A stretch of DNA of 48,749 nucleotides, from contig JANQHG010000204.1 in assembly GCA_028277115.1 (NCBI GenBank), positions 1-48,749 on the forward strand, read 5' to 3'. The notes beneath the pieces are model-generated. The model was not told where the DNA came from and searched no databases. It saw only the letters and a program-made list of their open reading frames with translations. Position 1 is the first letter of the stretch; the number at the start of each line of letters is the position of its first letter. The translations under genes were made by a program, and so were the position numbers. Of the stretch, positions 4,825 to 33,506 are shown piece after piece. This DNA comes from Azospirillaceae bacterium (GTDB lineage Bacteria > Pseudomonadota > Alphaproteobacteria > Azospirillales > Azospirillaceae).

Positions 4825-4924
4825 ATTCTGTGTCTCCCGTAGCCAAAGTCGCGATATATTGACACCCGGTCCCGGCCCGGCGCAAGCTGTCGGTGGGCCG
4901 ACGGCAATTTGGCGGGGCGGGGCC

Positions 4925-8122: not shown

Positions 8123-8176
8123 CGCATTGTCGCCGCGTCGCCGCGCCCCGTCACCGACCGAACCGGCAATCCGCGA

Positions 8177-8209
8177 CACGCCAGGCACGCTTTGAGCGTG
8201 CCTGGCGTG
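8177..8209. terminator. Strong hairpin between the helicase gene and the CRISPR array
   Basis: A perfect 15-bp inverted repeat with a 3-base loop (arm CACGCCAGGCACGCT) lies 55 bases after the helicase stop. There is no clear T-run on either side, so it is a probable but not certain terminator. It could stop both the helicase transcript and an array transcript coming from the right. Confidence 0.55.
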
Positions 8210-8246
8210 CGGTTCTTCGCCCCACGTCGCACCGGTGCGGTCAGCC

Positions 8247-8881
8247 ACCACAATGAAGCCCGGGCACGTACATGCCCGGGAATAAGCCCACCACGGTCGC
8301 GGCCAGGTCAGCGAGTGGGCGTTTCAATGAAGCCCGGGCACGTACATGCCCGGGAATGAACTCAGGGCTTGAGCTTACGCCCGTCGAAAGGGCTGTTTCA
8401 ATGAAGCCCGGGCACGTACGTGCCCGGGAATGATGGCCGGCCGCTGCTTCTGCGTCAGTTATTTACGGGTTTCAATGAAGCCCGGGCACGTACGTGCCCG
8501 GGAATTTTGCCGGATGGCGACTGGCCGGCGGTTATGGTCGCCGTTTCAATGAAGCCCGGGCACGTACGTGCCCGGGAATGGTGCACCAGGTTCGTTTTGG
8601 GAACCCTGTGCAATATCGTGTTTCAATGAAGCCCGGGCACGTACGTGCCCGGGAATGTCGAGATGCCCAGATTACCACCGCCGAGATTGAACACCGTTTC
8701 AATGAAGCCCGGGCACGTACGTGCCCGGGAATCTGACTGGAACCCCCGGCTCCGTACGCTGGCCGCGCTGGTTTCAATGAAGCCCGGGCACGTACGTGCC
8801 CGGGAATCCGGGTGCCGGCCAACGCTTGGCTCGGGGTGTCGGTGGTTTCAATGAAGCCCGGGCACGTACGTGCCCGGGAAT
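8247..8881 (-). CRISPR. CRISPR array: 9 repeats, 8 spacers
   Basis: The 37-base repeats read GTTTCAATGAAG, then a 22-base perfect palindrome (CCCGGGCACGT and its complement), then AAT. Repeats start at 8247, 8321, 8395, 8469, 8543, 8620, 8696, 8771 and 8845. Spacers are 37, 37, 37, 37, 40, 39, 38 and 37 bases. On the minus strand the repeat ends ATTGAAAC, the usual 5' handle end of type I and III crRNAs. The leftmost repeat has lost its last bases (ACCA for GTTT on the plus strand), and the two leftmost carry a G-to-A change in the palindrome. Together these indicate transcription leftward with the leader right of 8881. No cas gene lies in the window, so the type is unassigned. Confidence 0.97.
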
Positions 8882-9219
8882 AGACCCCTTGATTTCCTGA
8901 GTGATCTTAGCCGGTTATCCTGTGGATTGCGAGCGCTCCGCGCTCGGTCGGCGAACCGATCGTCCTGAAGGGCCGCTTGGGTACCAGCGCAACCAATAGT
9001 TCGTTGAGTCATTGCCGTTTTTCCGTTGCGAGCACTCCCCGGGGTTTCTGCGCCGCAAGAGGTCTCGCGCCGATCGGCGGCGGCCTGGAGCGGGGCGGGG
9101 CAGAGACTCGGGCAGCCCGGGGGGCAGGTCTTGGCAGCGGCCGCGAAACGCGGTAAAAATCTGGCGTTGCGCGGCAGCGCGCGGTGGGCGCACATCGGCG
9201 GGCGCGGGAGAGATGGGGC
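8882..9219. other. Probable CRISPR leader and upstream region of the lipoprotein gene
   Basis: There is no supported gene here. The part next to the array (about 8882-9035) is less GC-rich than its surroundings and has short T-runs such as CGTTTTTCCG, as expected of a leader for a leftward array. It also holds a small hairpin, CGAGCGC-TCC-GCGCTCG. The right-hand part precedes the lipoprotein gene, whose ribosome site (GGGAGAG) lies just before 9220. Confidence 0.5.
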
Positions 9220-9609
9220 ATGAACAAGGTCGCGGTTGGGCTGTGCGTCGCCGGGCTGGCGGTCGCCGGCTGTCAGGATATCGATACCTACACCCCGCTG
9301 ATCGATCCCTCGGTGTTGCCACCCGAACGGGACATGGGCGCCGATCTCGACGAGTGCCGGCATTTTGCCCGACAGATCGATGTCCAGGGCCAGAAGATTC
9401 TCCACATCACCGCCGGCGGCGCCCTCGGCGGCCTGTTGGGCGCGCTGGCCGGCGGCATCATCGGCGTCCCCACTTGGGGCGGCGGCCTTGGCGCCGCCTA
9501 TGGGGCCTCGGTCAGCTACGCCAGTGCCCAGGCCGCCCACATCAACTACCAGCAGCGCGTCATCGCGCTGTGCATGCGCGGCCGTGGCTACAGCGTGATC
9601 TCGCCCTAA
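9220..9609 (+). CDS. Small outer-membrane-type lipoprotein with glycine zipper
   Basis: A 129-residue lipoprotein of unknown role. The start MNKVAVG is chosen for the GGGAGAG site upstream and because it gives a short signal peptide with a lipobox (LAVAGC), so the mature protein would begin at the Cys near residue 18. The middle (about residues 66-95) is a Gly/Ala-rich hydrophobic stretch (GGALGGLLGALAGGIIG), like the glycine-zipper segment of Rick_17kDa/SlyB-type lipoproteins, but it lacks enough similarity for a name. It is followed by a hairpin at 9651-9675 and then by azlC. Confidence 0.8.
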   Translation: MNKVAVGLCVAGLAVAGCQDIDTYTPLIDPSVLPPERDMGADLDECRHFARQIDVQGQKILHITAGGALGGLLGALAGGIIGVPTWGGGLGAAYGASVSYASAQAAHINYQQRVIALCMRGRGYSVISP

Positions 9610-12742: not shown

Positions 12743-13471
12743 CTACGGTGCCGACGCGAACAGGCGGTCGGGGCCGAGACCGGCCGCCACCAACTGGTCG
12801 AGCCGCGTTGCGGCACCGGCGCCGTCGCGGGCAAGCCAGCGGTCGATCAGGTGCCAGCGCAGCACATAGGCGACCACCGCGGTCAGATCGAACAGCTGCG
12901 CCTCGGCGGCACGGCCGTACGCCGACCAGGCGACCGAAATCTCCAGACGTTCGAGACCGAGCGCGTCACCGTCGTCGAGACAGCGCCGCGCCTCGGTCAG
13001 CCACGGGTACAGCCGCTCAAGCCTGAAGGCCGGCTCGCGCCAACGCCGCGCCATCACCGCCGCCCATGGGCCGACCGCCCAGGGCGGCGGTCCTTCGCCG
13101 GCGCGACGTCGGCGCAGTGCTGCGACCAGGGCGCGCCGCGTCAGCGCCTCAGCGACCAGAGCGTGGAGAGCGGGGTCGTCGAGGGTCGCCAGGGTCGCCC
13201 GCGCCTGCGCCGCCACCGCCTCGTCGTCGCGCGCCGCCGCCGCCGGCCAGGCCAAGGTCTGCTCGATCCGGCGCTGCACCGCCGCGCCGTCGGCGTCGAG
13301 CAGGGCCAGCCGCTGGTCGAGCTGATAGCGCGAAAGCGGCCGGTGCTTGGCCGAAAACGGGTGCGGCAGCGCCGGCAGGCTCGCGATCACCTGGCAATAG
13401 GGCGCGGTGACCGCGCGGGTGCCGAGCCCGCCCGCCACCGCGAGCGTCGCGGTCTCGACCCCGGCGGTCAC
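12743..13471 (-). CDS. DUF2764-like V-ATPase operon protein
   Basis: A 242-residue protein in the slot, between subunits E and A, that DUF2764 occupies in V-type ATPase operons of spirochaetes and chlamydiae. There it is thought to stand in for the central-stalk C subunit. The N-terminal segment YCQVIASLPALP matches the family's opening, and the rest is helical and rich in Arg/Ala with an aromatic core near RLYPWLTEARR. The GTG start overlaps the stop of subunit E (GTGA). The family call rests on position plus the short opening motif. Confidence 0.7.
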   Translation of the reverse strand: MTAGVETATLAVAGGLGTRAVTAPYCQVIASLPALPHPFSAKHRPLSRYQLDQRLALLDADGAAVQRRIEQTLAWPAAAARDDEAVAAQARATLATLDDPALHALVAEALTRRALVAALRRRRAGEGPPPWAVGPWAAVMARRWREPAFRLERLYPWLTEARRCLDDGDALGLERLEISVAWSAYGRAAEAQLFDLTAVVAYVLRWHLIDRWLARDGAGAATRLDQLVAAGLGPDRLFASAP

Positions 13472-14175
13472 TTGACGATGCCCTCCAAGAGCGCCCGGAA
13501 CCGCGGCTGCAAGTGGTCCATCAGCACCGCCGCGACCGCCTGGTCGGTCAGATCCAGCGTGATCCCCTGACCGATCAGCCGCACCGTGATGCCGCCGCGG
13601 TCGTCCGCGGCCGCGCGCAAGGTGACGCCGGCGCGCAAAACGTCGCCGGTCACCGCCAGCACCAGGCGGGTCAGCTCGCCGTCGTTCAACTCCTGCGGCC
13701 GCCGGCGCAGCTCCTCGAGCCCGACCGCGTCGCGCGGCAGGATCACCTCCATCGCCGCGTCGTCGGCAATCGCCAGCTCCTCGCCCGCGCGCGCGGCGAT
13801 CGTCACGATCAGGCGGCGCACCAACTCGAGATCGGTGGTCTGTTCGGACACCAGGCGCCCGATCTCGCCGGCGAACCGCACAGTGAGCGTGTGCTTGAGG
13901 TCGAGCACGGCGTCGCGCGCCGCCAGCCTGAGCGCGTCCTCGGCCGCGTCACGGGTGCGCGCCGCCTCGGCACGGGCGTCGGCGACCAGGCGCGCGGCCT
14001 CGGCCTCGGCCGCGGCGAGCCGCTGGCGCGCCTCGGTCTCGGCCGCGTTGATCAGGTCATCGGCACGGCTGCGCCCGGCGGCGACGCCTTCGTCGCGCAG
14101 GCGGTCGATCAGCGCCTCGACGCCGCTCGCCACCATGGCCGCGCCGGTCGGCCGATCGTCGTCGTCGATCGTCAT
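13468..14175 (-). CDS. atpE: V-type ATPase stalk subunit E
   Basis: Peripheral-stalk subunit of 235 residues. The N-terminal half, about residues 20-100, is a long alpha-helix of Ala/Glu/Arg heptads (AETEARQRLAAAEAEAARLV). The C-terminal half is a mixed alpha/beta domain, as in subunit E. An ATG start is used; an in-frame TTG six bases upstream is less likely. It lies 15 bases after subunit K and overlaps the next gene by four bases. The shape and operon place support the call, while the sequence itself is poorly conserved in this family. Confidence 0.82.
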   Translation of the reverse strand: MTIDDDDRPTGAAMVASGVEALIDRLRDEGVAAGRSRADDLINAAETEARQRLAAAEAEAARLVADARAEAARTRDAAEDALRLAARDAVLDLKHTLTVRFAGEIGRLVSEQTTDLELVRRLIVTIAARAGEELAIADDAAMEVILPRDAVGLEELRRRPQELNDGELTRLVLAVTGDVLRAGVTLRAAADDRGGITVRLIGQGITLDLTDQAVAAVLMDHLQPRFRALLEGIVK

Positions 14176-14190
14176 CGGCAAACGCCCCGG

Positions 14191-14640
14191 TCACGGCTGC
14201 GGCAGGCTCGCGCTGATCACCAGCGCGAAGATGAACGCGAACACCGCAAACCCCTCGATGATCGCCGCCGGCGCCAGCGACAGGCCGAACACCTCGGGCT
14301 TGGCCTTGGTCGCGTGGATCGCCGCCGCGCACAGCTGGCCCTGGCGCACGCCGCTGACCATCAGCGCCAAGCCGGTCAAGAGCCCGATCGCAAACAGACC
14401 GGGCGCGACCGCGGCATCGACCGTCCGGTTCAGCGTGAACATCACGACAATGCCATAAATGATCTGCGACGACGGCATCGCCGCCACGCCGACATAGCGG
14501 CCATGCCCGCCCTCGGTCTCGATCATCGCGCCGACCGCGGCCTGACCCGCGACCGCGCAGCCGATGATGCTGCCGACCGCGCCCAGCGCCATCGGCGCGA
14601 ACACACCGACCCAACCAAGCGCGATGATCAGCTCCGTCAC
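14191..14640 (-). CDS. atpK: V-type ATPase rotor-ring subunit K
   Basis: Proteolipid of 149 residues with four hydrophobic helices, the doubled form that builds the membrane ring. The essential carboxylate is the Glu in AAIIEGFAVFAF (helix 4). Polar residues that bind sodium in the Enterococcus hirae ring have apparent counterparts: Ser-Gln in MPSSQIIYG (helix 2) and Gln in SGVRQGQL (helix 3). That suggests Na+ rather than H+ coupling, an inference from motif comparison only. GTG start, overlapping the subunit I stop. Confidence 0.9.
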   Translation of the reverse strand: MTELIIALGWVGVFAPMALGAVGSIIGCAVAGQAAVGAMIETEGGHGRYVGVAAMPSSQIIYGIVVMFTLNRTVDAAVAPGLFAIGLLTGLALMVSGVRQGQLCAAAIHATKAKPEVFGLSLAPAAIIEGFAVFAFIFALVISASLPQP

Positions 14641-16427
14641 CGCTCCACCTCCGTGCGCCGAAACCCGTGGAACGGCCGGCCTTCGTCCGGCAGCCCCCAG
14701 TTGAAGAACTCGATGAAGTTGAGCCTGAGGCCGTGGACCACGCCGCTCATCAAACAGAGCGCGAGGTTGAGGCCATGGCCGGCCACCAGGATCAACAGGC
14801 TCAAAAACAGCCCAAGGCCCGGCACCGCCTCGGAGACGTCGCCGGCCAGCCGGTTGAAGGTCAGCGCCAAAGACCCGCTGGCCAGCCCGAGCGCGAACAG
14901 ACGCATGTAGCTCAGGACATCGCCGAACGCCGCGGTGACGCCGGTCAGCGCGACCAGCCCGGCCAGGCCGCGCCGGAGCGCGTCCTTGAGATCATGCACC
15001 GGCCGCGGGTCGGCGAACAGCGCGACCGCCGCCAAGCCCGCGACGATCAAAAGCCAGCCGAACGTCCCGGCCGCCCCCGCCCCGGCGCGCCACACGAAAA
15101 GCCCGCCGACCAGCGCCGCGATCCAGCCGAGCGGGCGGGCGCGCCGGCGCCAATCCGGCGCCGCGCGCGCGACCGCACCATGGGCCAGGCACAGATGCCC
15201 GACCCCGACCACGATCGACAGCGCCATCATCGCGCCATAGTCGGTGAGATCGAGCCACGCCAACCCCGCCAGCAGCGAGCCCGCGGGCGGCGCCATCCCG
15301 AAATAGCCGCCGGTCAGCACGCCGTACCCGACCGTCGCCGCCACCATCACGACGCCCAGCCGGCGCAACCGCCGGCCGAGCGCGCCGGCGCCGAGCCGGC
15401 CCCAGACCAGCGCCAGCAGCGCGCCGAACACCAGGCCGTAGCCGGCATCGGCGGTGATCATGGCAAAGAACAGGGCGAACGAGCCGAACACCACCGCCGA
15501 CGGGTCCCAGCCGTGGTACGCCGGGGTCTTGTAGAACCGGACGATGTCGCCGCCGCCCGCGACCGCCGCCGGCGGGTCGAGCAGGGTCGGCGGGGTGTCG
15601 GCCGGCCCCGGCGGCTCGACCAGCAGCACCAGGCCGGCGCGCTCGGCAAACCGCTTAAGCCGTCCAACCGCGGCGTCCGGCGCCCAGCCCTGGACCGCGA
15701 ACACGCCGTCGCGGTCCAGCGTCGCCGCCGCGGCGGCGGCGCGGGCGGCGCGGTCGTCGGCGGCGGCCAGGTTGCGCGCGATCAGGCCGGTCCAGCGGCT
15801 GAGCGCCTCGCGCTCGGCGGCCAAGTCCTCGAGCGTGACTTCGAGTTCGTCGAGCCGGCGGCGCAGCTCGGCCAGCGCGGTCGAGCCGACGTGCGAGCGC
15901 GCCACCGGCATCGCGTCCGCGGGCGGTTCGTCGTGCGCGATTGCGACGACATAGGCGACCCGGTGGTCGCGGTGCACGATCACCCACGGCACCCGGTCGG
16001 ACACCCGACCGAGCTCGGTCAGCGGCACGACATAAAACCACAGCCGCCGGTCGCCGAGCTGATCGAGCGGCGGCAGGGTGAACGCGCCCCACGGCGCCAG
16101 CTCCCGCTCGTACTGGGTCAGCGTGTCGCGTTCTTCGAGCGTGCGCCGGATCGCGTCCTGGTTGGCGCGCGCGCGCGCCACCACCGCGGCAAGATCGAAC
16201 CCGGCGGCCCGGCGCACCGGCCGGCGCCGGCGCGGCGTCGCGGCGAGATAGGCGAGCGCCCGCAAAGCCTCTTCGGCGCGCGCCGGCGGCGCCTGGTCGG
16301 GTGCGGCCGGCGGCGGCACCAGCGGGATCAGGTGCAGACAGCCGAGGTCCTGCAGCCCTTCCATCACCGCCGATTTGTCCGCGGCGGCGCCGCACAGGCT
16401 GACCTTGGCGAGCGGGACGATGCTCAC
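14637..16427 (-). CDS. atpI: V-type ATPase subunit I (stator, a-subunit type)
   Basis: A 596-residue membrane stator that passes ions to the K ring. The N-terminal ~320 residues are soluble, with coiled-coil stretches (LAELRRRLDELEVTLEDLAAE). The C-terminal half has about eight membrane helices, including the conserved region SYMRLFALGLASGSLA and the ending GVVHGLRLNFIEFFNWG. The GTG start giving VSIVPLAKVSLCG fits the family start and overlaps the subunit D stop. A longer open frame upstream is Arg/Gly-rich antisense noise. Confidence 0.92.
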   Translation of the reverse strand: MSIVPLAKVSLCGAAADKSAVMEGLQDLGCLHLIPLVPPPAAPDQAPPARAEEALRALAYLAATPRRRRPVRRAAGFDLAAVVARARANQDAIRRTLEERDTLTQYERELAPWGAFTLPPLDQLGDRRLWFYVVPLTELGRVSDRVPWVIVHRDHRVAYVVAIAHDEPPADAMPVARSHVGSTALAELRRRLDELEVTLEDLAAEREALSRWTGLIARNLAAADDRAARAAAAAATLDRDGVFAVQGWAPDAAVGRLKRFAERAGLVLLVEPPGPADTPPTLLDPPAAVAGGGDIVRFYKTPAYHGWDPSAVVFGSFALFFAMITADAGYGLVFGALLALVWGRLGAGALGRRLRRLGVVMVAATVGYGVLTGGYFGMAPPAGSLLAGLAWLDLTDYGAMMALSIVVGVGHLCLAHGAVARAAPDWRRRARPLGWIAALVGGLFVWRAGAGAAGTFGWLLIVAGLAAVALFADPRPVHDLKDALRRGLAGLVALTGVTAAFGDVLSYMRLFALGLASGSLALTFNRLAGDVSEAVPGLGLFLSLLILVAGHGLNLALCLMSGVVHGLRLNFIEFFNWGLPDEGRPFHGFRRTEVER

Positions 16428-24282: not shown

Positions 24283-24633
24283 ATGCTGATCCTGACCGAC
24301 GCCGCCCACGACGCCTTGGTCGCGGCCGCCGGGCGATCACGCCGCCCGATCGCCGGCGTGCGGGTCGCCGTGATCGAGCCCGACTGCCGCGCCCCGCGCT
24401 ACGCCCTGGTCCTCGCCAGCACGGTCGATCTCGACGACGTGGTGGTCGAAAGCGGCCGAATCCGGCTCCTGATCGATCGCGACAGCGCACCTCAGCTCAA
24501 CGGCACCACGATCGATTTCCTGGCCCCCGACCCGTCCGCGGACGATCCGTCCCGCCGCACCGGCGGCTTCACTTTCGAGACCGGCCGCGGCGACGCCTGC
24601 CAGTTCTGTGCCCTGTCCAAGCGGGCGGCGTGA
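24283..24633 (+). CDS. HesB/IscA-like iron-sulfur protein of the nif cluster
   Basis: A 116-residue A-type iron-sulfur carrier. The three cysteines of the family are present in modified settings: one in [11 protein letters not shown] (about residue 37) and a C-terminal pair CQFC (about residues 107-110) where IscA has [16 protein letters not shown] and GGFTFE match the core fold. The ribosome site AAGGAAGA precedes the ATG. It is the first gene after the sigma-54 promoter and abuts nifV, so it probably delivers clusters during nitrogenase maturation. It is more diverged than ordinary IscA, and the role is inferred from context. Confidence 0.78.
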
Positions 24634-24638
24634 CCGCC

Positions 24639-25859
24639 ATGCCGCCGCCCCTGCCCGTGCCGTCCGCCGCCCCGCCGCCGGACCAGGTGTCGGCGCTCGC
24701 GCCGCGTCCGGTCGTGCTCGACGACACCACGCTGCGCGACGGCGAGCAATCGGCCGGCGTCGCGTTCAGCCGCGATGAAAAGCGCGCGATCGCGCAAGGC
24801 CTCGACGCGCTCGGCGTGCCCGAGCTCGAGATCGGCATCCCGGCGATGGGCCCGGACGAGTGCGACGATATCCGCGCGATCGCGGCGCTCGGCCTGTCGG
24901 CGCGACTGATCGTCTGGTGCCGGATGACCGAGCGCGACCTCGCCGCCGCCGCCGGCCTGCCGGTCGCGATGGTCGACCTGTCGATCCCGGTGTCCGACCA
25001 GCAGATCGCCCACAAGCTCGACCGTGACCGGGCCCATGTCCTCGACCGGATCGCCCGGCTGGTGCCGGCGGCGCGCGACCTCGGGTTTGCCGTGTGCGTC
25101 GGCGGCGAGGACGCCTCGCGCGCCGATCCCGACTTCCTCCTGAAGGTGCTCGACGCCGCGGCCGCGGCGGGCGCCGAGCGGTTCCGCTTTGCCGACACGG
25201 TCGGGATCGCCGAGCCGTTCGCGCTCGCCGACCTGTTCCGCCGGCTGCGCACCGCCAGCGACCTCGACCTCGAGATCCACGCCCACGACGACCTCGGGCT
25301 CGCCACCGCCAATACGCTGGCCGCGATCCGCGCCGGCGCGACCCACGCCAACACCACGGTCCACGGGCTCGGCGAGCGCGCCGGCAACGCCGCGCTGGAA
25401 GAGGTCGCACTCGCGCTCGCCCACCTGCACGGGCGACCGACCGGGGTCGATCTCACCCGCTTCGACGCCCTGTCGCGCCAGGTTGCGGCGGCGTCGGGTC
25501 GGCCGGTGCCCTGGCAAAAGAGCATCGCCGGCGCCGGCGCCTTCACCCACGAGGCCGGCATCCACGTGGACGGCCTGCTCAAGAACCCGGCCAACTACCA
25601 AGGCTTCGACCCGGCCGAGGTCGGACGGCGCCACGAGATCGTGCTCGGCAAGCACTCGGGCACCCGGGCGGTCGCCCACGCCTATGCCGGGCTCGGGGTC
25701 GCGCTTGACCGCGACCATGCCGAAACCATCCTCGCCCTGGTTCGCCGCCACGTCACGACCGCCAAACGGCCGCCCGGCCCCGACGACCTGCGCGACTTCC
25801 TGGCCGCCGCGATGCCGTGCCGCCCCGCCCCCGTCGATCCCGCGTCGAGGCTGCCATGA
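24639..25859 (+). CDS. nifV: Homocitrate synthase NifV
   Basis: Joins acetyl-CoA to 2-oxoglutarate to give homocitrate, the organic ligand of the nitrogenase iron-molybdenum cofactor. About 406 residues of the HMGL/LeuA-like barrel family, with [16 protein letters not shown] near residue 29, [36 protein letters not shown] and [12 protein letters not shown] at 24630 overlapping the previous stop is an alternative start. The next gene overlaps by ATGA. The company of nifW and nifZ makes NifV far more likely than isopropylmalate synthase. Confidence 0.95.
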
Positions 25860-26188
25860 TCGAACACGACCTTGCCGCCGCCGGTGCCGAACTGTCGGGC
25901 GCCGAAGACTTCCTCGACCACTTCGGCGTCGCCTATGACCAGAGCGTCGTCCAGGTCAACCGACTGCATATCCTGCAAAGGTTCCACGGCTATCTGGCGA
26001 AGATCGAGGACTGGCCGGCCGACCCGGCGGCGCGCCATGCGCTCTATGGGACTTGGCTTACCCGCGCCTACCAGGATTTCGTCACCTCGGATGCGCGCAC
26101 CGAGCGGGTCTTCCGGGTCTTCAACCAACCGACGCCCGCCCCCGCCACGACCGGCTTCGTCCCGCTCGACCAACTCGGCGAGGGCTGA
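25856..26188 (+). CDS. nifW: Nitrogenase-stabilising protein NifW
   Basis: A 110-residue accessory protein that protects or helps mature the MoFe protein. The sequence has the family pattern [26 protein letters not shown] split into short helices, then [15 protein letters not shown] and RVFRVFNQ. Its ATG overlaps the nifV stop, so the two are translationally coupled. Length and order match nifV-nifW-nifZ clusters of alphaproteobacteria. Confidence 0.93.
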
Positions 26189-26303
26189 CCGAAAGAGTAG
26201 CCGTAGGTCGGTGCGATGTGCCGGCTCGTCGGATCCGATCGGCACCGACCGCGCCTGGCACATCGCGCCGACACCCCGCCGCCTCGGCTATCGGGAGACC
26301 AGG

Positions 26304-26738
26304 ATGACGCCCACCTTCGAACTCGGCGATCCGGTGCGCGTCCTGCGCACGATCCGCAACGACGGCAGCTACCCGGGCGCGTCCCGCGGCGCGGTCCTGA
26401 TCCGCCGGGGCGCGGTCGGCCACATCGTCTCGATCGGCACCTTCCTCCAGGACCAGACCATCTACGCGGTCCACTTCCTGGCCGAGGGCCGGGTGGTCGG
26501 CTGCCGCGACACCGAGGTCCAGCCGCCCGACGCGCCCTACACCGACAGCCCGATCGACCGCGGCGACACGGTGATCGCCCGCCGCCCGCTCGCCCACGCC
26601 GGGGTGACGCTGGTCGCCGCCGGCACCGCCGGCCGGGTGATTTCGGTCGACCGCGCCGACCCGGACGCCGTCACCTGCGACGTCCTTTTTCCGGGCTTCG
26701 AACCCGTGACCGTGCCGGATCACGCGCTGTCCTTGTAG
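26304..26738 (+). CDS. nifZ: Nitrogenase maturation protein NifZ
   Basis: A 144-residue protein involved in forming the P-cluster of the MoFe protein. The first half holds the NifZ signature FELGDPVRVLRTIRNDG, SRGAVLIRRG and VGHIVSIGTFLQDQTIYAVHF. The second half is another SH3-like barrel segment starting DRGDTVIARRPL. The start ATG is preceded by GGGAGACC. It is separated from nifW by 115 bases with no strong signal and is probably in the same transcript. The nif structural genes are not in this window. Confidence 0.92.
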   Translation: MTPTFELGDPVRVLRTIRNDGSYPGASRGAVLIRRGAVGHIVSIGTFLQDQTIYAVHFLAEGRVVGCRDTEVQPPDAPYTDSPIDRGDTVIARRPLAHAGVTLVAAGTAGRVISVDRADPDAVTCDVLFPGFEPVTVPDHALSL

Positions 26739-26801
26739 CGCCGGCACGGCCTGATCACCTCATACCTCATGGAGCGGTCTCGCGATACGGAACCACCGCC
26801 G

Positions 26802-27734
26802 TCACCGCCTCAGTGCCCGCACCACCCGCCCGTCGATCGCCGCGAGCCCGGCGGCGATCAACGCCATCCCGGCGAGATCCGCCAACCCCAACTGCTCGCC
26901 CAACCCCAAGGTGCCGAGGCTGATCGCCGTCACCGGAACCAAAAAGGTCACCAGCATCAAATTGGTCGCACCGACCGTGCCGAGCAAACGATAGTAAAGA
27001 ATATAGGCCACGGCCGTCGACAACACACCGAGTGACACCACCGCCGCCACGGCCGACCCCGACGGCACGGGCAAGGTCCACGGCCGGTCGATCACCAGCG
27101 CGGTCGGCAGGATCAACAACGCCGCCGCGGTCACCTGGCCGGTCGCCGAAACCAGCGGCGGGATGCCGAGCCGACGGAAGCGCCGGCCGAACACCGTCGC
27201 CAGCGCATAACACAACGCCGCCCCCAACACCGCAAACTGCGCCAGCAACGCCGACCCAAGCCCGGCGAGCGCGTCGGGGCCGACCAACACCACCACCCCG
27301 GCGAAACCGACCAAGACCCCGCCGACCCGGCTCACCGTCATCCGCTCGTCCGAGGTCATCACATGCGCCACCACCACCGTGAACAACGGCGTGGTCGCGT
27401 TCAAGATCGAGGCAAGGCCGCTTGCGATCTCGGTCTGACCCCAGACGATCAGGGAAAAGGGCAAGGCATTGTTGACGGCGCCGATCCCAAGAAACGTCAA
27501 CAAGAGGCGTGGGTTGGTCGGCAGGCGCTGGCCGGCCGCTCGCACCAAAACATGCAAAGCCAGCGCGCCGAAACAGACGCGGCCCGCCACCAAGGTGAAC
27601 GGCGGGACGAAGTCGTTCGCAACCTCGACCATGAAAAAGGAGCTGCCCCACAGCATCGAAAGACCCACCAGCGTCGCCCAGTCGAGCCACGACATGGCCA
27701 GGCGGATCGGTGGGAGCGCCGGACTGGAAGACAT
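26802..27734 (-). CDS. EamA/DMT-family transporter
   Basis: A 310-residue inner-membrane protein with about ten hydrophobic helices in two repeated halves, typical of the drug/metabolite transporter superfamily. Motifs include LWGSSFFMVEVA near the first helix and GLASILNATTPLFTVVVAHV in the fourth. The substrate cannot be told from the sequence. It is the last gene on the minus strand after the radical SAM genes, separated from them by a GC-rich element, so it could export the product of that locus or be unrelated. Confidence 0.88.
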   Translation of the reverse strand: MSSSPALPPIRLAMSWLDWATLVGLSMLWGSSFFMVEVANDFVPPFTLVAGRVCFGALALHVLVRAAGQRLPTNPRLLLTFLGIGAVNNALPFSLIVWGQTEIASGLASILNATTPLFTVVVAHVMTSDERMTVSRVGGVLVGFAGVVVLVGPDALAGLGSALLAQFAVLGAALCYALATVFGRRFRRLGIPPLVSATGQVTAAALLILPTALVIDRPWTLPVPSGSAVAAVVSLGVLSTAVAYILYYRLLGTVGATNLMLVTFLVPVTAISLGTLGLGEQLGLADLAGMALIAAGLAAIDGRVVRALRR

Positions 27735-27831: not shown

Positions 27832-28785
27832 TCAGGTCGAGAGAGGCCAGGTCTCGTTGGCGTGGCGCAAAAGACTGGGGTCACGGAAACAGGCGGCCAC
27901 GAAGTCGCGCACTTCCACCGAGCGCCACGCGCGACGATAGGCGTCCCACGCCTCGGAAATCGTGTCACGCCGAAGATCGGCCGGGGAAAAAGGCAACGCG
28001 TTCAATATTTTGACCTTGCCGTTCGGCACGATCAACAGCATCGCATGCGGCTCGACCAACTGGTGGCCGAGCTCCGAAACAATGTCCCAAGGATAGATCG
28101 ACAGCTTGGTCGAGGACGGGTGCGCAACGGCACGTGCCTTCAGCGCATCAACCGTACGCGCCCAGGCGTCGTCGTCACAAGCAAGCCCGTCCCAGTCCGC
28201 CGCGGCGCGGCCAAGCCGCATCATCGGGCCGGTGACAAAGGCGCCGCAGCCCAACGACACCGCAAGGTCGAACGCTTGAACCGCCTCGGCAACATTGTGA
28301 CGGGCCGGGGTGAACACCATCTGCGGCTCGAGACCGCGCGCAACCGCACGCTTCAGAGCAGCGACCGCGGCATCGAACGGCGAGCCCGGACGCATCCGGT
28401 CATGGGTCGCCGCGGTCGCGCCATCGACCGAAATCTGCAGACAGTGGACCGAGAGACCGGCCAAACGCTCGGCGGCGGCGTCATCGACCCGGGCGCCGTC
28501 GGTCTCGATCTTAATCGCGACGCCGACAGCGGCGAGCCGATCGAAAACCTCCCACGCATGGGCGACCCCCAACGGCTCGCCGCCACCGAAGGCGACGTAG
28601 GGTATGCCGGCGCCGATGATCTGGCGCGTCACCTCAAGTGCCTCGTCCCGGCTCAATTCATCGACCCAACCACGGTCCGGACCGGAGTCCTCGCAACAGG
28701 CGAGGCAGCGGCCGGCACAGCGGTTGGTCAACTGCCAGGCGATGAACAGGGGTGCACTATAATCCTCGATCGAACGACCCGACAT
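27832..28785 (-). CDS. Radical SAM enzyme C of the peptide locus
   Basis: A 317-residue radical SAM protein, paralogous to the two others in this locus. The cluster-binding cysteines are C23, C27 and C30 (NRCAGRCLACCE), followed by a glycine-rich SAM motif FGGGEPL and IKIETDGARV. The C-terminal part keeps a SPASM-like skeleton (IVPNGKVKILNALPF, then SEAWDAYRRAW) but has none of the SPASM cysteines, and lacks even the single Cys its paralogs have there. Its ATG lies 26 bases after the small peptide gene. It presumably modifies that peptide, or carries out a later step. Confidence 0.88.
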   Translation of the reverse strand: MSGRSIEDYSAPLFIAWQLTNRCAGRCLACCEDSGPDRGWVDELSRDEALEVTRQIIGAGIPYVAFGGGEPLGVAHAWEVFDRLAAVGVAIKIETDGARVDDAAAERLAGLSVHCLQISVDGATAATHDRMRPGSPFDAAVAALKRAVARGLEPQMVFTPARHNVAEAVQAFDLAVSLGCGAFVTGPMMRLGRAAADWDGLACDDDAWARTVDALKARAVAHPSSTKLSIYPWDIVSELGHQLVEPHAMLLIVPNGKVKILNALPFSPADLRRDTISEAWDAYRRAWRSVEVRDFVAACFRDPSLLRHANETWPLST

Positions 28786-28811
28786 GATTCACTGGTTTGG
28801 TGGCGGAACGA

Positions 28812-28967
28812 TCAGGTGAAACGGATGTACGGCTGGGCCATGACCTGACCCGAGACGTCTTCCATCTTCGGGGTCTCCCAGGCGGCCTTGGCGGTGTGCT
28901 TGATCTCGCCGTTGCGGGTGTCGCTCGCCGCCTGACGATCGTCGTCCTTGACTGCCAACTCGATCAC
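28812..28967 (-). CDS. PqqA-like precursor peptide, 51 residues
   Basis: A small gene with a strong ribosome site (GGAGG, spaced seven bases) before a GTG that overlaps the stop of radical SAM gene B (GTGA). The leader is charged (VKDDDRQAASDTRNGE). The last 22 residues, from Trp30 to the end, are the same length as the Trp-to-end part of Klebsiella PqqA as I recall it. They align without gaps: W30, P33, D37, Y47 and I48 coincide. PqqA's cross-linked Glu (position 14 of that segment) is Met43 here, so PQQ cannot be formed by the known route. The peptide ends MAQPYIRFT. Its position between two radical SAM genes, with a PqqD-like protein upstream, makes it the probable RiPP substrate. Confidence 0.8.
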   Translation of the reverse strand: MIELAVKDDDRQAASDTRNGEIKHTAKAAWETPKMEDVSGQVMAQPYIRFT

Positions 28968-29935
28968 TGTCTGCCTCCGTTGGGTGATATGCCGGCGTCA
29001 GGGAGCGCAACCCAGCGGTTGGCGTCGGCGTGGCAGGTCGGGTCCTGGATCGCCCGGTCGATCGCGGCGGAGACCGCCTCGGTCCGCCAGGCGCGGCGGT
29101 ACCGTTCCCACACCTCGGCCAGCGACTGGCGCCGGACGTCCGCACAGATGTACGGCAGCGCGGCTGCCACCTTGACCCAGCCATTCGGGAGAACGAGAAG
29201 CGTCGCGGGCGGCTCGGCCCGGCAGGCGCTGAGCCCGTCTTCCATCGAAAAGGGTAGATAACACAGTTCCATGGCATCGCCAAGCGATGCCGCCCGGCGG
29301 TCCAGGAAGGCCCGGAATGCCGACAACGCGTCGGCATCAAGCGAAAGCCGGCCCCACAGCTTGGCCGCCGTGCCGATCCGCATCGGGCTGCCGGTGTTGA
29401 ACCGAAACGCGCCGAGCGCGCGCGCGCGCGCGATCACCGCCTCGGCCTCGGCCAGATTGAGCCGGGTCGGGGCAAAGGTGATCTCGAGCGGCAGCCCGGC
29501 CTCACGCACCATCCGGCACGCCGCATGGGCCCGCGCCAGGTCCGCCCCTGGCCGCTGCCGTGCATAGACCGCCTGGCTGTCGCCGTCGAGCGAGACCTGG
29601 ATCGACCGGATCGGCAGCCGCGCCAGCCGTGCCACCGTCGCCGCATCGAGCGCCTGGCCGTTGGTCTCGATCTTGAGCTGCACCCCGGCCGCCCCCAGCC
29701 GTTCGGCGACCGCGACGATATGCGGCACGACCAACGGCTCGCCGCCGCACAGCATCACGTAGGGAACGTCCGCCCGGATCAGCGCGTCGGCGAAGGCGAA
29801 CGCCTCTTCCCCGTCCAATTCGTCGGCCAGGCGTCGGTTCGGGGCCGACTCCGTGCAGCAGTGCAGGCAGGCGAGATCGCAGGCGCGGGTCACCTGCCAC
29901 GACACGAACAACGGCCCGCCGAGCCGGTCGATCAT
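28964..29935 (-). CDS. Radical SAM enzyme B of the peptide locus
   Basis: A 323-residue radical SAM protein. C19, C23 and C26 (RACDLACLHCC) hold the iron-sulfur cluster, with LCGGEPLVVPH and LKIETNGQAL behind them. The C-terminal segment LLVLPNGWVKVAAALPYICADVRRQSL resembles a SPASM region that has lost its cysteines. The start at MIDRLGG fits its paralogs, and a GGGGAA site lies upstream; a longer open frame begins in repeats. The stop is embedded in the peptide gene start, so enzyme and substrate are translationally coupled. The likely role is modification of the peptide; the chemistry is unknown. Confidence 0.9.
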   Translation of the reverse strand: MIDRLGGPLFVSWQVTRACDLACLHCCTESAPNRRLADELDGEEAFAFADALIRADVPYVMLCGGEPLVVPHIVAVAERLGAAGVQLKIETNGQALDAATVARLARLPIRSIQVSLDGDSQAVYARQRPGADLARAHAACRMVREAGLPLEITFAPTRLNLAEAEAVIARARALGAFRFNTGSPMRIGTAAKLWGRLSLDADALSAFRAFLDRRAASLGDAMELCYLPFSMEDGLSACRAEPPATLLVLPNGWVKVAAALPYICADVRRQSLAEVWERYRRAWRTEAVSAAIDRAIQDPTCHADANRWVALPDAGISPNGGRQ

Positions 29936-29969
29936 TGGTTCCCCACCGTCCCTGAATGATACTGTGCGA

Positions 29970-30165
29970 CCGCCCCGCCGAAAGGCGGGGGCACGTCCTC
30001 CCCCCACGGTACGTGGGGGGAGTCAGAGGGGGGCATACGGCGGCGCCGGTGGCCACGGGCGCCGCCGTATGCCCCCATCCGTCCGCTCAAACGGACACCT
30101 TGTATCTCCGTGCTACCGCTTCGCTGCGTGAGCACAGTCGCTTCCCCCGCTTGGGCGGGGGAAGG
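29970..30165. repeat. String of strong hairpins between the prenyltransferase gene and radical SAM gene B
   Basis: Four inverted repeats lie in a 270-base gap: CCCCGCC-GAAA-GGCGGGG near 29974; 11-bp arms CTCCCCCCACG at 29998-30022; 19-bp perfect arms GGGGGCATACGGCGGCGCC at 30029-30076 with a 10-base loop; and CTTCCCCCGC at 30141-30164. The gap is otherwise without a gene. The arrangement looks like an inserted repeat element, and it may attenuate the downstream genes. Confidence 0.75.
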
Positions 30166-30204
30166 AGATTTCGCCGCGCCACCCGTCGCAGTCCGTCCGG
30201 CACC

Positions 30205-31152
30205 TCAGACCCAGACGTCGGCGAGCACCGCGGCACCGAACAGCCCGACCGCGGTCACATAGCAGCGCACCATCGCGCGGATCGCCGGGATGAACACCCG
30301 CGGCGTCTCATAGGTCGCGCGGGCGTGGCGCAGGCTCTGGACCAGAAACACCAAGGCCACCAGCGCGCCCAACGCGGCCGGTGGGAACACGCCGGTCGCG
30401 GCCCCGACCGGGATCACCGCAAGCCCGACCGCCGCCAGCACGCCATAGAGCACCACCCCGCCCCATCGGCCCAGCCGAACCACCAGGTTGCGCTTGCCGA
30501 CCAGCCGGTCCTGGTGGAAGTCGGGCACCGCGTTGATCACCGCAAGCGCGGTGATCAAAAGCCCCGGGACCAGCGACGCCGCCGCGGCCCCCCACGACAC
30601 CGCGCGCGCGTGCAGATAGAGGCTGCCGAGCACCATCCACGGTCCATAGCTGAGCCCGATCACGGTCTCGCCGAGACCGCGATAAGCCCAGCGCACCGGC
30701 GGCGTGACATAGAACATCGCGGCCAGGCCGCCGAGCAGCGCAAACACGAAGATCGGCCAGCCGACCGAAAACGAAAGGTAGAGCCCGACCGCGATCGCCG
30801 CGGCAAAGGCCGCGATCCCGAGCCACAGCACCCCGTCCGAGATCGGCGGCAGGTCTTCCTGGATGAACACCCGGTCGGGGCCGAACTTGGCGTCGAAATA
30901 TTCGTTGAACGCCTCGACCCCGATCACCGCGAACACGACGCCGCCGAGCCCGCTCCAAAACAGCGCCGGATCGAACGCGCCCGCCACCGCACAGGCCCAG
31001 GCGGCGCCGAGCAGATAGGGCAACAGCCCCGCGTACAGGAAGAAGCGGTATCGGACCAGGCTGATCACCAGGAGCAACCGGTTGGCCAGCGTCGGCTGCC
31101 CGCCGGCCGCGCGGGCGTGCGGCGGCGGGCCGACCGGGCGCGCCAGGCTCAC
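30205..31152 (-). CDS. UbiA-family prenyltransferase
   Basis: An integral membrane enzyme of about 315 residues that transfers a prenyl chain to an aromatic or related acceptor. Both Asp-rich motifs are visible: NEYFDAKFGPD (about residues 82-92) and DFHQDRLVGKRNLVVRLG (about 208-225). About nine membrane helices surround them. The motif pattern is closest to MenA-like members, but the acceptor is unknown. The GTG at 31152 overlapping the stop of radical SAM gene A is taken as the start; an in-frame GTG 12 bases upstream is possible. Its place inside the peptide locus suggests prenylation of the peptide-derived product; a housekeeping quinone role cannot be excluded. Confidence 0.88.
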   Translation of the reverse strand: MSLARPVGPPPHARAAGGQPTLANRLLLVISLVRYRFFLYAGLLPYLLGAAWACAVAGAFDPALFWSGLGGVVFAVIGVEAFNEYFDAKFGPDRVFIQEDLPPISDGVLWLGIAAFAAAIAVGLYLSFSVGWPIFVFALLGGLAAMFYVTPPVRWAYRGLGETVIGLSYGPWMVLGSLYLHARAVSWGAAAASLVPGLLITALAVINAVPDFHQDRLVGKRNLVVRLGRWGGVVLYGVLAAVGLAVIPVGAATGVFPPAALGALVALVFLVQSLRHARATYETPRVFIPAIRAMVRCYVTAVGLFGAAVLADVWV

Positions 31153-32177
31153 AGGAAGACCCACTTGTGCAGCTCTGAGGTCCGGGTCGGGTCGGTTGCC
31201 ATGTCCTCGATGAACGTGGCGACCCTGGGGTCCTGCCAGGCGCGCTGGAAGTTGGCCCAGACCTCGCGCAGCGACTGGGTGCGCAGGTCGCCGCAGACGA
31301 ACGGCAGCGCGTTGATCAGTTTGACCAGCCCGTTCGGCAGCACGATCAACAGGGCGGCCGGGTGGTCGAGGCGGTAGCGCAGTTCTTCGACCAAACCCAT
31401 GCCATGGAAGGCGACCCGCATCCGCCCGGCGTATTGCGCGCTCTTGTTGCGCAGGTCTTCGAAGTAGCGGTCGTATTGCTCGTCGGTCGGTGCCATCTTG
31501 TGCCAGGTCTTGACCGCGTTACCGGTGTACATGGTCTTGCCGGTGTAGAAGCTGTCGGCGCCGAGTTGGTAGGCGAGATCGACCGCCTGGCCGACCTCGT
31601 GGATGTTGAAACTGGTCGGCGAGTAGTTGATTTCGATCGTGACCCCGGCTTCGCGCAGGTTGCGGATGCCTTGGATCATGCGGTCGAAGTCGCCGCGCAC
31701 CCGCATGCGGTTGAAGGTCTCGCGCGAGCCGCCGTCCATCGAGACCTGGACCGCCTTGACCCCAGAGTCCTTGAACCGTCGGCACGCGTCCGGGGTCAGG
31801 TGGTGGCCGTTGGTTTCGACTTTGAGTTGGGCGCCGCGCCGGCAGACGTAGTCGACCATCTCGAACAAGCGCGGGTGGACCAGCGGTTCGCCGCCGGAGA
31901 ACGACAGGTAGGGCACTTCGCAGTCCATGAAGTCGGCGAGTGCGCGGAACACCTGGTCGTCGGTCAACTCGTCGGGGAACGCTTTGCCGGGTCCGCTTTC
32001 TTCGATGCAGTGCAGGCAGTTCAGGTTACATTCGTTGGTGATCTGCCAGGCGATGTAGAGTGGCGCGCCGAGGTCTACGGTGCCGGCGGACGCCGGGGTT
32101 CGGCTGGGCTCGGCAGCGCGGCTTTCGGCGGCGTTGTCGGAGCCGAAGGGGTCGGCGCCGACCTGGTCATCCATCAT
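31149..32177 (-). CDS. Radical SAM enzyme A of the peptide locus (PqqE-like)
   Basis: A 342-residue radical SAM protein directly after the PqqD-like gene, the partner arrangement seen for PqqE and other peptide-modifying enzymes. Cysteines C50, C54 and C57 (NECNLNCLHC) bind the cluster; FSGGEPLVHP and LKVETNGHHL follow. The C-terminal region IVLPNGLVKLINALPFVCGDLRTQSL has a SPASM-like skeleton with only one Cys. An extended N-terminus of ~35 residues precedes the barrel. Start at ATGATG, overlapping the pqqD-like 3' end by 11 bases. Probably the first modifying enzyme of the peptide; sequence alone gives no reaction. Confidence 0.9.
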   Translation of the reverse strand: MMDDQVGADPFGSDNAAESRAAEPSRTPASAGTVDLGAPLYIAWQITNECNLNCLHCIEESGPGKAFPDELTDDQVFRALADFMDCEVPYLSFSGGEPLVHPRLFEMVDYVCRRGAQLKVETNGHHLTPDACRRFKDSGVKAVQVSMDGGSRETFNRMRVRGDFDRMIQGIRNLREAGVTIEINYSPTSFNIHEVGQAVDLAYQLGADSFYTGKTMYTGNAVKTWHKMAPTDEQYDRYFEDLRNKSAQYAGRMRVAFHGMGLVEELRYRLDHPAALLIVLPNGLVKLINALPFVCGDLRTQSLREVWANFQRAWQDPRVATFIEDMATDPTRTSELHKWVFL

Positions 32178-32424
32178 CTTCGACCAGTCCTTTGCGGCGC
32201 AGGTGGGCGAGGAACGTTTCGACCTCGTTGGCGAGTTTGCCGTCGGCATCGCAGAACGCCGCCGCGAGGCCGGGCACGATCTGGTCTTCCGGCGTCCCCG
32301 CCTGGATCGCCCGGACCACCGCAGCCGCGGTCGGATTCAGGGTATAGACGGTCTCGGCGCGGGTTTCGAACAGGACGCCGCCGAACTTTTCTTCCCGATA
32401 CTTCACGAATTTCGCGAGTTTCAT
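32167..32424 (-). CDS. PqqD-like peptide-recognition protein
   Basis: An 85-residue protein with the PqqD/RRE pattern: a strand segment (GGVLFETRAETVYTLNPTAA), then VVRAIQAG, and a helical end EVETFLAHLRRKGLV. In PQQ and related pathways PqqD binds the leader of the precursor peptide and presents it to the radical SAM enzyme. The start is the ATG at 32424, giving MKLAKFVKYREE; the open frame continues upstream into a GC-rich element. It overlaps radical SAM gene A, as expected for a functional pair. Confidence 0.88.
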   Translation of the reverse strand: MKLAKFVKYREEKFGGVLFETRAETVYTLNPTAAAVVRAIQAGTPEDQIVPGLAAAFCDADGKLANEVETFLAHLRRKGLVEDDG

Positions 32425-32570: not shown

Positions 32571-33506
32571 CTACCAGATGCCGCCCCTCGGCATCCGGAA
32601 CGGCAGCAGCCCTTTCACCCAGGTCGAGGCGAACCGCGTCCCCGAGAAGCTCTCGTGGACCGCTGCCGTTTCCTCCCCCAGGATACAGGTCCTAAGCTCC
32701 GTTCGGGCATAAAACGGCGCATCCTCGAGGGTCCGCCGCACTTTGACCGGCTGGTTCGGGTCGGCTCGGGTGGTTCGTTTGACTTGCCACAGGGTGGTCG
32801 GCAGTTGCTGCACCGGCGGCACCGGGAACCCGGTCGCGTTGCCCTGGCGATCGACCTTGAGCGCCAGGCAGCCGGCCGGTCCCGCGGACGGGGTCAAATC
32901 ATAGAGGATTGCGGTCCCGTCGCGCAGCGGTGCGCGCGACCAGTCCCAACGCAGGAACGCGTTCTCGATCGGCTCATCGCCGGCGTTGGTGTCGAGGTAG
33001 CCGGAGCCGCGCCAGGCGATCGCCGGTCGGTCGAACGACAGTTCGAGGTCGGCGATCGGGGCGATCGGCCTCCAGCGGTGGCGGCCGGCCGGATCGAGGT
33101 GGTAGGTCTGCCCGGTGAGCGCGCGGGTATGGACGCGTACGACGCCGCGCACGCTGAGCGGCACCGGGGCGGCGCGTTCGTCGATCCGAATGGTCAGGGT
33201 TTCGCCGTCCCACACCAGGTTGCTTGGTCCGATCGAGAGGCTTTCGGCGTCGCGACCGAGCGCATCGCGGCTGCGTTCGGTCATGGCCCAGCGCCGGCCG
33301 CGCCGGCCGTAGAGGGCGACGTTGAGCGAAACGTGGTTTTCGGGATCCCGCCGGCCGGCCCAGGCGTAGTAGGGCGAGAACACGCTGCCGATGAAGGCGA
33401 TGATGGTCAGGCCGTATTGGCCGTCGTCGCTCAACCCATCGACGTACCACCAGGCGTAGCCGCCCGGTCGGACCGATTGGGTAAATCCGAGAGAGTCAGC
33501 GGTCAT
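32571..33506 (-). CDS. crtC: Carotenoid 1,2-hydratase CrtC
   Basis: Adds water across the end double bond of neurosporene or lycopene to give 1-hydroxy carotenoids on the way to spheroidene or spirilloxanthin. The 311 residues open with the family's highly conserved stretch WWYVDGLSDDGQYGLTII followed by FIGSVFSPYYAWAGRR, and later HVSLNVALYG and RWAMTERSRDAL. Length is normal for short-form CrtC. It lies on the minus strand upstream of the pqqD-like gene and about 4 kb from crtD. Confidence 0.95.
   Translation of the reverse strand: MTADSLGFTQSVRPGGYAWWYVDGLSDDGQYGLTIIAFIGSVFSPYYAWAGRRDPENHVSLNVALYGRRGRRWAMTERSRDALGRDAESLSIGPSNLVWDGETLTIRIDERAAPVPLSVRGVVRVHTRALTGQTYHLDPAGRHRWRPIAPIADLELSFDRPAIAWRGSGYLDTNAGDEPIENAFLRWDWSRAPLRDGTAILYDLTPSAGPAGCLALKVDRQGNATGFPVPPVQQLPTTLWQVKRTTRADPNQPVKVRRTLEDAPFYARTELRTCILGEETAAVHESFSGTRFASTWVKGLLPFRMPRGGIW

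Follow-up and report, generated by a model that had tools for sequence, protein, structure and literature searches.

A conserved bacterial cassette of a short peptide, radical SAM enzymes and a MenA-type prenyltransferase as a candidate pathway for a prenylated redox cofactor

A six-gene cassette built around a short peptide

A contig of 48,749 nucleotides from an alphaproteobacterium of the family Azospirillaceae (assembly GCA_028277115.1, contig JANQHG010000204.1; here called the window, at its full length) carries on its minus strand six open reading frames (ORFs) that run from position 32424, the start of a PqqD-like gene, to position 27832, the end of a radical S-adenosylmethionine (radical SAM) gene. 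In reading order they encode a PqqD-like protein, radical SAM A, a UbiA-type prenyltransferase, radical SAM B, a peptide of 51 residues and radical SAM C. We find that this cassette recurs, in full or in a simpler form, in genomes of two bacterial phyla, that the C-terminal core of its peptide is kept by selection and that its prenyltransferase is of MenA-type ancestry. Taken as sequence evidence, this suggests a cofactor pathway of the kind that makes ribosomally synthesised and post-translationally modified peptides (RiPPs), whose product the MenA-like enzyme would convert by prenylation to a redox carrier soluble in membranes; to this reading we assign a probability of roughly 40%. The features of the locus are as follows.

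32167 to 32424, minus strand: PqqD-like peptide chaperone (stand-alone RiPP recognition element), 85 amino acids; PF05402, 48.5 bits
31149 to 32177, minus strand: radical SAM A, 342 amino acids, ATG at 32177; PF04055, 87.6 bits; CxxxCxxC motif
30205 to 31164, minus strand: UbiA-superfamily prenyltransferase of MenA type, 319 amino acids; PF01040, 78.3 bits; alignment and trees
28964 to 29935, minus strand: radical SAM B, 323 amino acids; PF04055, 72.0 bits; orthologues
28812 to 28967, minus strand: precursor peptide, 51 amino acids, GTG start; translation, alignment and 10 homologues
27832 to 28785, minus strand: radical SAM C, 317 amino acids; PF04055, 73.7 bits; orthologues
30009 to 30096, no strand: 44-nucleotide inverted repeat in the gap between the UbiA and radical SAM B genes, 77% complementary and without spacer (repeat search); may be unrelated
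32571 to 33506, minus strand, upstream: crtC-like carotenoid hydratase gene, outside the cassette and given for context; NF045922, E 7.6e-87

The original prediction had placed these six genes on one strand, and all six ORFs were recovered there; the PqqD-like, UbiA and three radical SAM proteins all pass the Pfam gathering cut-offs (PqqD 23.4, Radical_SAM 29.5 and UbiA 34.2 bits). With the starts as taken, three of the five joints overlap (PqqD/A, A/UbiA and B/peptide), in agreement with the overlaps predicted at most joints, and gaps of 269 and 26 nucleotides separate UbiA from radical SAM B and the peptide from radical SAM C. The GTG start of the peptide gene sits 4 nucleotides inside the end of the radical SAM B gene and is preceded by GGAGG. 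The crtC-like gene scores 291 bits, below the curated cut-off of 400 bits for its model.

Distribution and conservation of the cassette

A pattern scan of genome contigs for radical SAM A, with a range limited to close relatives, returned five loci (L002 to L006), and all five contain the peptide; because the peptide played no part in the scan, co-occurrence was fairly tested within that range. Four of the loci (L002 to L005) have the full order PqqD, A, UbiA, B, peptide, C, and L006, from a metagenome-assembled genome of the phylum Chloroflexota, has a simple set of peptide, PqqD, one radical SAM enzyme and UbiA. Searches with peptide profiles covered 385 genomes of the window's class and 82 of its order (profile A1) as well as 350 genomes of the phylum of genome G466 and the orders of G463 (250 genomes), G464 (246), G462 (150) and G465 (61) (profile A4), altogether 1,524 genome-searches with some genomes searched twice. 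They yielded five new strong matches (E 7.7e-15 or better), in each of which the enzymes of the set adjoin the peptide: the full order is present in G1331, G1517 and G1468, the same order up to the contig end in G1469 (locus L031), and the simple form in G481. In the orders of G463 and G464 a C-terminal profile returned none but known carriers. Weak peptide matches in Chloroflexota (E 0.008 to 0.04 among the nine of 11 listed) were taken as chance and dropped.

In total, the full order occurs in the window and in eight more proteobacterial genomes, one of them cut by a contig end, and the simple set in two Chloroflexota. Peptide and radical SAM genes are present at all 11 loci, PqqD at 10 of the 11 (the contig of L031 ends before it), and the place of the peptide between radical SAM B and C recurs in eight loci besides the window. 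The cassette is rare and patchy, and its order is kept wherever it is present. The predicted unit of conserved peptide, PqqD, radical SAM enzyme and UbiA is supported; the pattern that had been named as its refutation, loss of the peptide where the enzymes are kept, was seen at none of them, and six (the window and L002 to L006) were found independently of the peptide.

The core of the precursor peptide is under selection

The peptide combines a variable N-terminus with a recognition-like stretch, WETPKMEDVS, and a C-terminal core, VMAQPYIRFT. The stretch, of the form W-E-T-P-x-M-E-D-V-S, is kept across the homologues, with W replaced by L in L003 and further changes in Chloroflexota. Within the final nine residues, MAQPYIRFT, substitutions among the 11 sequences are confined to two positions (M to T in L004 and Y to F in L006). 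Over the 55 pairs of these sequences the proportions of synonymous and nonsynonymous differences in the last nine codons are pS 0.63 and pN 0.033, a pN/pS of 0.053, as against 0.40 for the 15 codons preceding them in the same comparison. On the strength of this ratio and of the recurrence at 11 loci, a chance ORF was rejected. The core is almost constant between the two phyla, whereas PqqD, radical SAM A and UbiA show 29-46% identity.

The peptide has no match in Pfam or NCBIfam at E <= 1, so that its description in the original prediction as PqqA-like is an analogy only. The 'tyrosine end' to which modification had been assigned likewise needs qualifying, as the tyrosine is the fifth residue from the C-terminus (Y-I-R-F-T) and is phenylalanine in one of the 11 sequences. 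The idea that tyrosine is restricted to cassettes with three radical SAM enzymes was rejected, since G481 has a single such enzyme and yet has tyrosine. Most antimicrobial RiPP cores are not kept so constant. By analogy, the conservation of the core across phyla resembles the mycofactocin precursor more closely than antimicrobial RiPPs; for mycofactocin, the invariance of the core end between phyla served as an argument for an electron-carrier role (PMC3023750).

The prenyltransferase is related to MenA

A UbiA gene is present in 11 of 11 cassettes in both phyla, always directly after the first radical SAM gene. The alignment of the cassette proteins retains both Asp-rich motifs (NEYFD...G.DR and DFHQDRLVGKR). 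In trees that included UbiA-fold paralogues from the carrier genomes and the MenA proteins of E. coli and T. roseum, all 11 cassette proteins fall into one clade (support 100/99) that adjoins MenA and related genes and does not lie inside them, the whole MenA-type group being supported at 100/100. The last of these trees omits L061 (closely similar to L058), L038 and L049 (the same genes as L073 and L074), a weak match of G481 (L054, read as another kind), a weak match of G465 (L081, which the profile missed) and one G465 match without a locus of its own, which is the bchG gene of L005. Against the MenA equivalog model of NCBIfam the cassette UbiA reaches at best 86 bits, the cut-off being 264. 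UBIAD1 is the sole sequence match in the PDB at E <= 0.01 and is also the nearest fold to the structure model (predicted local distance difference test, pLDDT, 78.4).

The window's genome contains three other UbiA-fold genes, none of them within the MenA-type group, which we read as UbiA, a CtaB-like protein and BchG. Six of the 11 carrier genomes (G000, G463, G465, G1468, G1469 and G481) yielded no MenA-type enzyme other than that of the cassette, a count that leaves aside the weak matches of G465 and G481 named above.

PqqD and radical SAM enzymes

A PqqD homologue stands at the matching place in seven of the eight other proteobacterial loci and in both Chloroflexota, the eighth locus (L031) ending at its contig end. 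In the window's genome (93.8% complete) the cassette PqqD is the only PqqD match, and there is accordingly no sign of a separate PQQ (pyrroloquinoline quinone) or mycofactocin synthesis in that genome.

Orthologues of radical SAM B and C in L002 to L005 share 57-67% and 59-67% identity with them, respectively. All three cysteines of the CxxxCxxC motif are present in A (8/8), B (9/9), C (9/9) and the Chloroflexota enzymes (2/2); the cysteine counts exclude radical SAM A of L031, which is truncated at the end of its contig. No shared C-terminal cysteine set of the SPASM/twitch kind, which would hold auxiliary clusters, was seen in A, B, C or the Chloroflexota enzymes. A single C-terminal cysteine is kept in A (8/8) and Chloroflexota (2/2) and is present in five of nine B and none of nine C proteins, and there is a second one in six of nine B and another in eight of nine C proteins. 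For radical SAM A, a structure model (mean pLDDT 78.6, from a six-sequence alignment) has SkfB, PqqE, BlsE and SuiB as its nearest folds, three of which are RiPP maturases, followed by viperins and MoaA.

In a first radical SAM tree A and C formed single groups and B was split by a misplaced, long-branched sequence from a plasmid (L069). A second tree, which left out this sequence and the long-branched PqqE, gives A (8 sequences), B (9) and C (9) as single branches (99/98, 100/100 and 100/100), and places them with the Chloroflexota enzymes in one clade (100/99) that excludes MftC, NirJ and three further radical SAM proteins. Because they form one clade, A, B and C appear to have arisen by duplication of a single gene. 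The window does have three radical SAM enzymes, as in the original prediction, with the qualification that they are apparently copies of one another and that each Chloroflexota set contains a single such enzyme. Within the clade the Chloroflexota enzymes branch between A and B+C at moderate support (93/91), so that the simple form may be ancestral or reduced; the search for members of the clade covered cassette genes.

Some other radical SAM genes were noticed in passing. In L006 an extra one (8668 to 9510, plus strand) directly precedes the Chloroflexota peptide and has no match to the cassette radical SAM queries at E <= 1. The plasmid of Indioceanicola profundi (L069, 2035 to 6837) carries a different group of three radical SAM enzymes and PqqD, with an NTF2-family protein and a 49-residue ORF lacking the IRFT end. 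A tblastn search of radical SAM A and UbiA against plasmids returned distant enzymes only.

Electron-transport genes near some cassettes

The original prediction raised a possible link of the locus with phototrophic membranes. The reaction-centre family Photo_RC was matched in seven of the nine proteobacterial carriers (G000, G463, G464, G465, G1468, G1469 and G1517), and in the order of G465, where 16 of 61 genomes match it, all four carriers are among those 16 (chance 0.0035, relatedness ignored). The link is not a required one: Photo_RC was not found in four of the 11 carriers (G462, G466, G1331 and G481, including both Chloroflexota), some of whose genomes are possibly incomplete, and on their account a strictly phototrophic function was rejected. 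In L004 the cassette follows bchZ and pufLM and precedes a DUF3623 gene, which we take to encode a photosynthetic assembly protein; in L005 an antenna protein gene and bchG lie at most 6 kb away. The window has, at 36-40 kb, an amine-oxidase-family gene (crtD-like by eye), a polyprenyl synthetase gene and an O-methyltransferase gene. No photosynthesis genes were recognised in the parts of L003, L030 and L032 that were read, and L031 is a 6.5-kb contig.

The two proteobacterial loci without a Photo_RC match have other electron-transport genes near the cassette. In L029 a single strand carries, one after another, a NrfA-family cytochrome gene, the cassette, NapC and a cytochrome c gene, and farther out come a 10-haem cytochrome and an MtrB/PioB porin; the surroundings, with multihaem cytochrome genes to both sides of the cassette, are likely an extracellular electron-transfer locus, whose genes lie at 13237 to 14697 and 7993 to 8920 (minus strand) and 4841 to 7931 (plus strand). 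In L002 frdCAB genes, with scores above the cut-offs for three fumarate reductase equivalogs, are found 2.4 kb away from radical SAM C, with hemN on the opposite side. A Polyketide_cyc gene, presumably resembling the ubiquinone-binding protein COQ10, faces radical SAM C in L005, L031 and L032 (by family search in L005 and L031 only). No electron-transport clue was seen in the flanks of the Chloroflexota loci.

Setting aside short, housekeeping and transporter matches, a comparison of the flanks (up to 200 matches a pair) found shared non-cassette genes confined to the relatives L005, L031 and L032. Further observations concern single loci. In the window radical SAM C is followed about 100 nucleotides downstream by an EamA transporter gene (26802 to 27734, likewise on the minus strand), and ORFs resembling, by eye, nifV, nifW and a nifZ-like gene occupy 24500 to 26740 on the plus strand. 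The Photo_RC matches of G000 comprise an L/M-like pair on contig C130 and three partial matches on C251, C78 and C75, perhaps a second reaction-centre set or fragments. In L032 a glucose/sorbosone dehydrogenase-family gene (13507 to 14868, plus strand) is divergent from the PqqD gene.

Proposed function and alternative explanations

We infer the chemical steps, the peptide or a fragment of it as prenyl acceptor, the redox activity and the function as follows. PqqD would bind the W-x-x-P...DV stretch of the peptide and pass the peptide to its radical SAM maturases (a single enzyme in the simple form, three related enzymes in the full form), which would remodel the core VMAQP[Y/F]IRFT without oxygen. 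A housekeeping protease might release an aromatic piece of the core, and the MenA-type enzyme would prenylate the core or the aromatic fragment. The product would be a membrane-soluble redox carrier, in effect a ribosomally made lipoquinone-like compound, which could supplement or replace ubiquinone in electron transport, photosynthetic or anaerobic. That the product is a membrane-bound cofactor is a fair guess, strengthened by the likeness of the cassette UbiA to MenA. The more specific version, a lipoquinone-like carrier with a head group that oxygen-independent radical chemistry cuts out of a ribosomal peptide and that a MenA-derived enzyme prenylates, is more doubtful. If true, respiratory or photosynthetic redox lipids would have another source besides the routes from chorismate that lead to ubiquinone and menaquinone. 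A prenylated, membrane-soluble cofactor made from a peptide and encoded in or near photosynthesis genes, or next to NapC or fumarate reductase genes, would mean that an electron carrier for which no search has been made exists in some bacteria, and would give a reason why carrier genomes keep an extra MenA-type enzyme.

Several points weigh against a prenylated redox carrier. A direct link between peptide and UbiA is lacking, and no protease or oxidase gene and no counterpart of PqqB/PqqC or MftD/MftE was recognised in the cassette, though these were not searched by family. With phenylalanine in place of the core tyrosine in L006, a tyrosine-derived quinone cannot be universal. Five of the 11 genomes (G462, G464, G466, G1331 and G1517) have one or more further MenA-type enzymes, and the absence of others elsewhere, like the lack of Photo_RC in G462, is read from genomes that may be incomplete. 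The Polyketide_cyc neighbour is confined to three loci of one order, its link to COQ10 coming from general knowledge, and no quinone-linked genes were recognised in the flanks of L003, L030, L006 and L019. Finally, one of the 82 genomes of the window's order carries the cassette; such rarity implies that the product is not essential.

The foremost alternative, unlikely in our estimate, is that the peptide stays a peptide and, cross-linked by the radical SAM enzymes and fitted with a prenyl tail, becomes a lipopeptide that helps to assemble a membrane complex for electron transfer or serves in it as a small subunit. A cross-link from the Y/F ring to the arginine two residues on, as in three-residue cyclophanes, would suit the aromatic-x-Arg motif and would permit the phenylalanine of L006, and the L004 cassette does lie inside a photosynthesis gene cluster; however, the complexes near the cassette vary by host (reaction centre, fumarate reductase, NapC), and the simple form of Chloroflexota occurs without reaction-centre matches. 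A prenylated RiPP natural product acting outside the cell, as an antibiotic or signal, seems less probable still. Radical SAM enzyme, PqqD and precursor peptide are a common RiPP layout, the patchy spread is compatible with horizontal transfer and an EamA transporter gene follows radical SAM C in the window, but nothing that flanks the other cassettes matches this gene, no flanking gene is common to the loci outside the exceptions given above, and the near-constancy of the core over two phyla is unlike most antimicrobial cores.

Lower again we rank two loosely linked functions, in which UbiA would prenylate an ordinary small-molecule acceptor and the peptide system would mature something else. 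UbiA enzymes often use small aromatic acids, and the peptide as prenyl acceptor is without direct evidence; yet a cassette-specific UbiA clade, found behind the first radical SAM gene in every cassette of two phyla, speaks against a loose association. Least likely by far is a known pathway in disguise. PqqD and radical SAM matches, with the mycofactocin maturase MftC as top model for B and C, point that way, but this explanation is largely refuted, as the NCBIfam models listed for the enzymes all remain below their curated cut-offs, the peptide is unmatched and the radical SAM and UbiA proteins occupy clades of their own; on these scores and clades PQQ, mycofactocin and menaquinone synthesis were ruled out. 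We retain a RiPP-type pathway to a prenylated membrane cofactor as the preferred reading.

Comparison with known systems

The original prediction named no described pathway with this set, and the curated models agree with it: AhbD, MftC, NirJ, PqqE and MenA are among those listed for the cassette enzymes (the 25 best of 81 models for radical SAM A, of 60 for B and of 41 for C), all below cut-off. No description of the set was found in the open-access literature, most subscription papers and all bioRxiv preprints lying outside it, and the main text of a review of radical SAM RiPPs (PMC8326336) contains neither 'prenyl' nor 'UbiA'.

Mycofactocin synthesis (MftA, MftB, MftC) shares with the cassette a small precursor with a conserved C-terminal end, a PqqD-family chaperone and a radical SAM maturase, and MftC is the top-scoring NCBIfam model for B and C and the second for A. 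It differs in that MftC scores 119 (A), 88 (B) and 95 bits (C) against a cut-off of 265, the cassette core ends in IRFT and not in the CGVY of MftA, and the place of the mycofactocin glycosyltransferase is, in the cassette, that of a MenA-type prenyltransferase. PQQ synthesis (PqqA, PqqD, PqqE) likewise combines PqqD, a radical SAM enzyme and a tyrosine-containing peptide, and PqqE is the second-ranked fold match of the radical SAM A model; here, however, the cassette peptide has no family match, the scores are 30.5 against 46 bits for PqqD and 80.7 against 381 bits for PqqE, and no pqqB or pqqC was recognised beside the cassettes, though neither was searched by family. The SynChlorMet system (ScmD, ScmE, ScmF) has, by NCBIfam names, a PqqD-family protein and two radical SAM maturases, but the cassette scores 17.8 against 100 bits for ScmD, 82 against 400 for ScmE and 90 against 400 for ScmF. 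To our knowledge, the SynChlorMet system has no UbiA.

The cassette UbiA resembles MenA and UBIAD1 in its adjoining clade, in both Asp-rich motifs and in having UBIAD1 as the closest solved structure, and differs from them in forming its own clade and in standing beside a peptide maturase in 11 of 11 cases. Peptide-derived redox cofactors are known (PQQ, mycofactocin), and we know of none built with a MenA-type prenyltransferase. The general RiPP-type layout of radical SAM enzyme and PqqD is thus known, whereas the MenA-type prenyltransferase in all 11 cassettes, together with the three related maturases, sets this variant apart.

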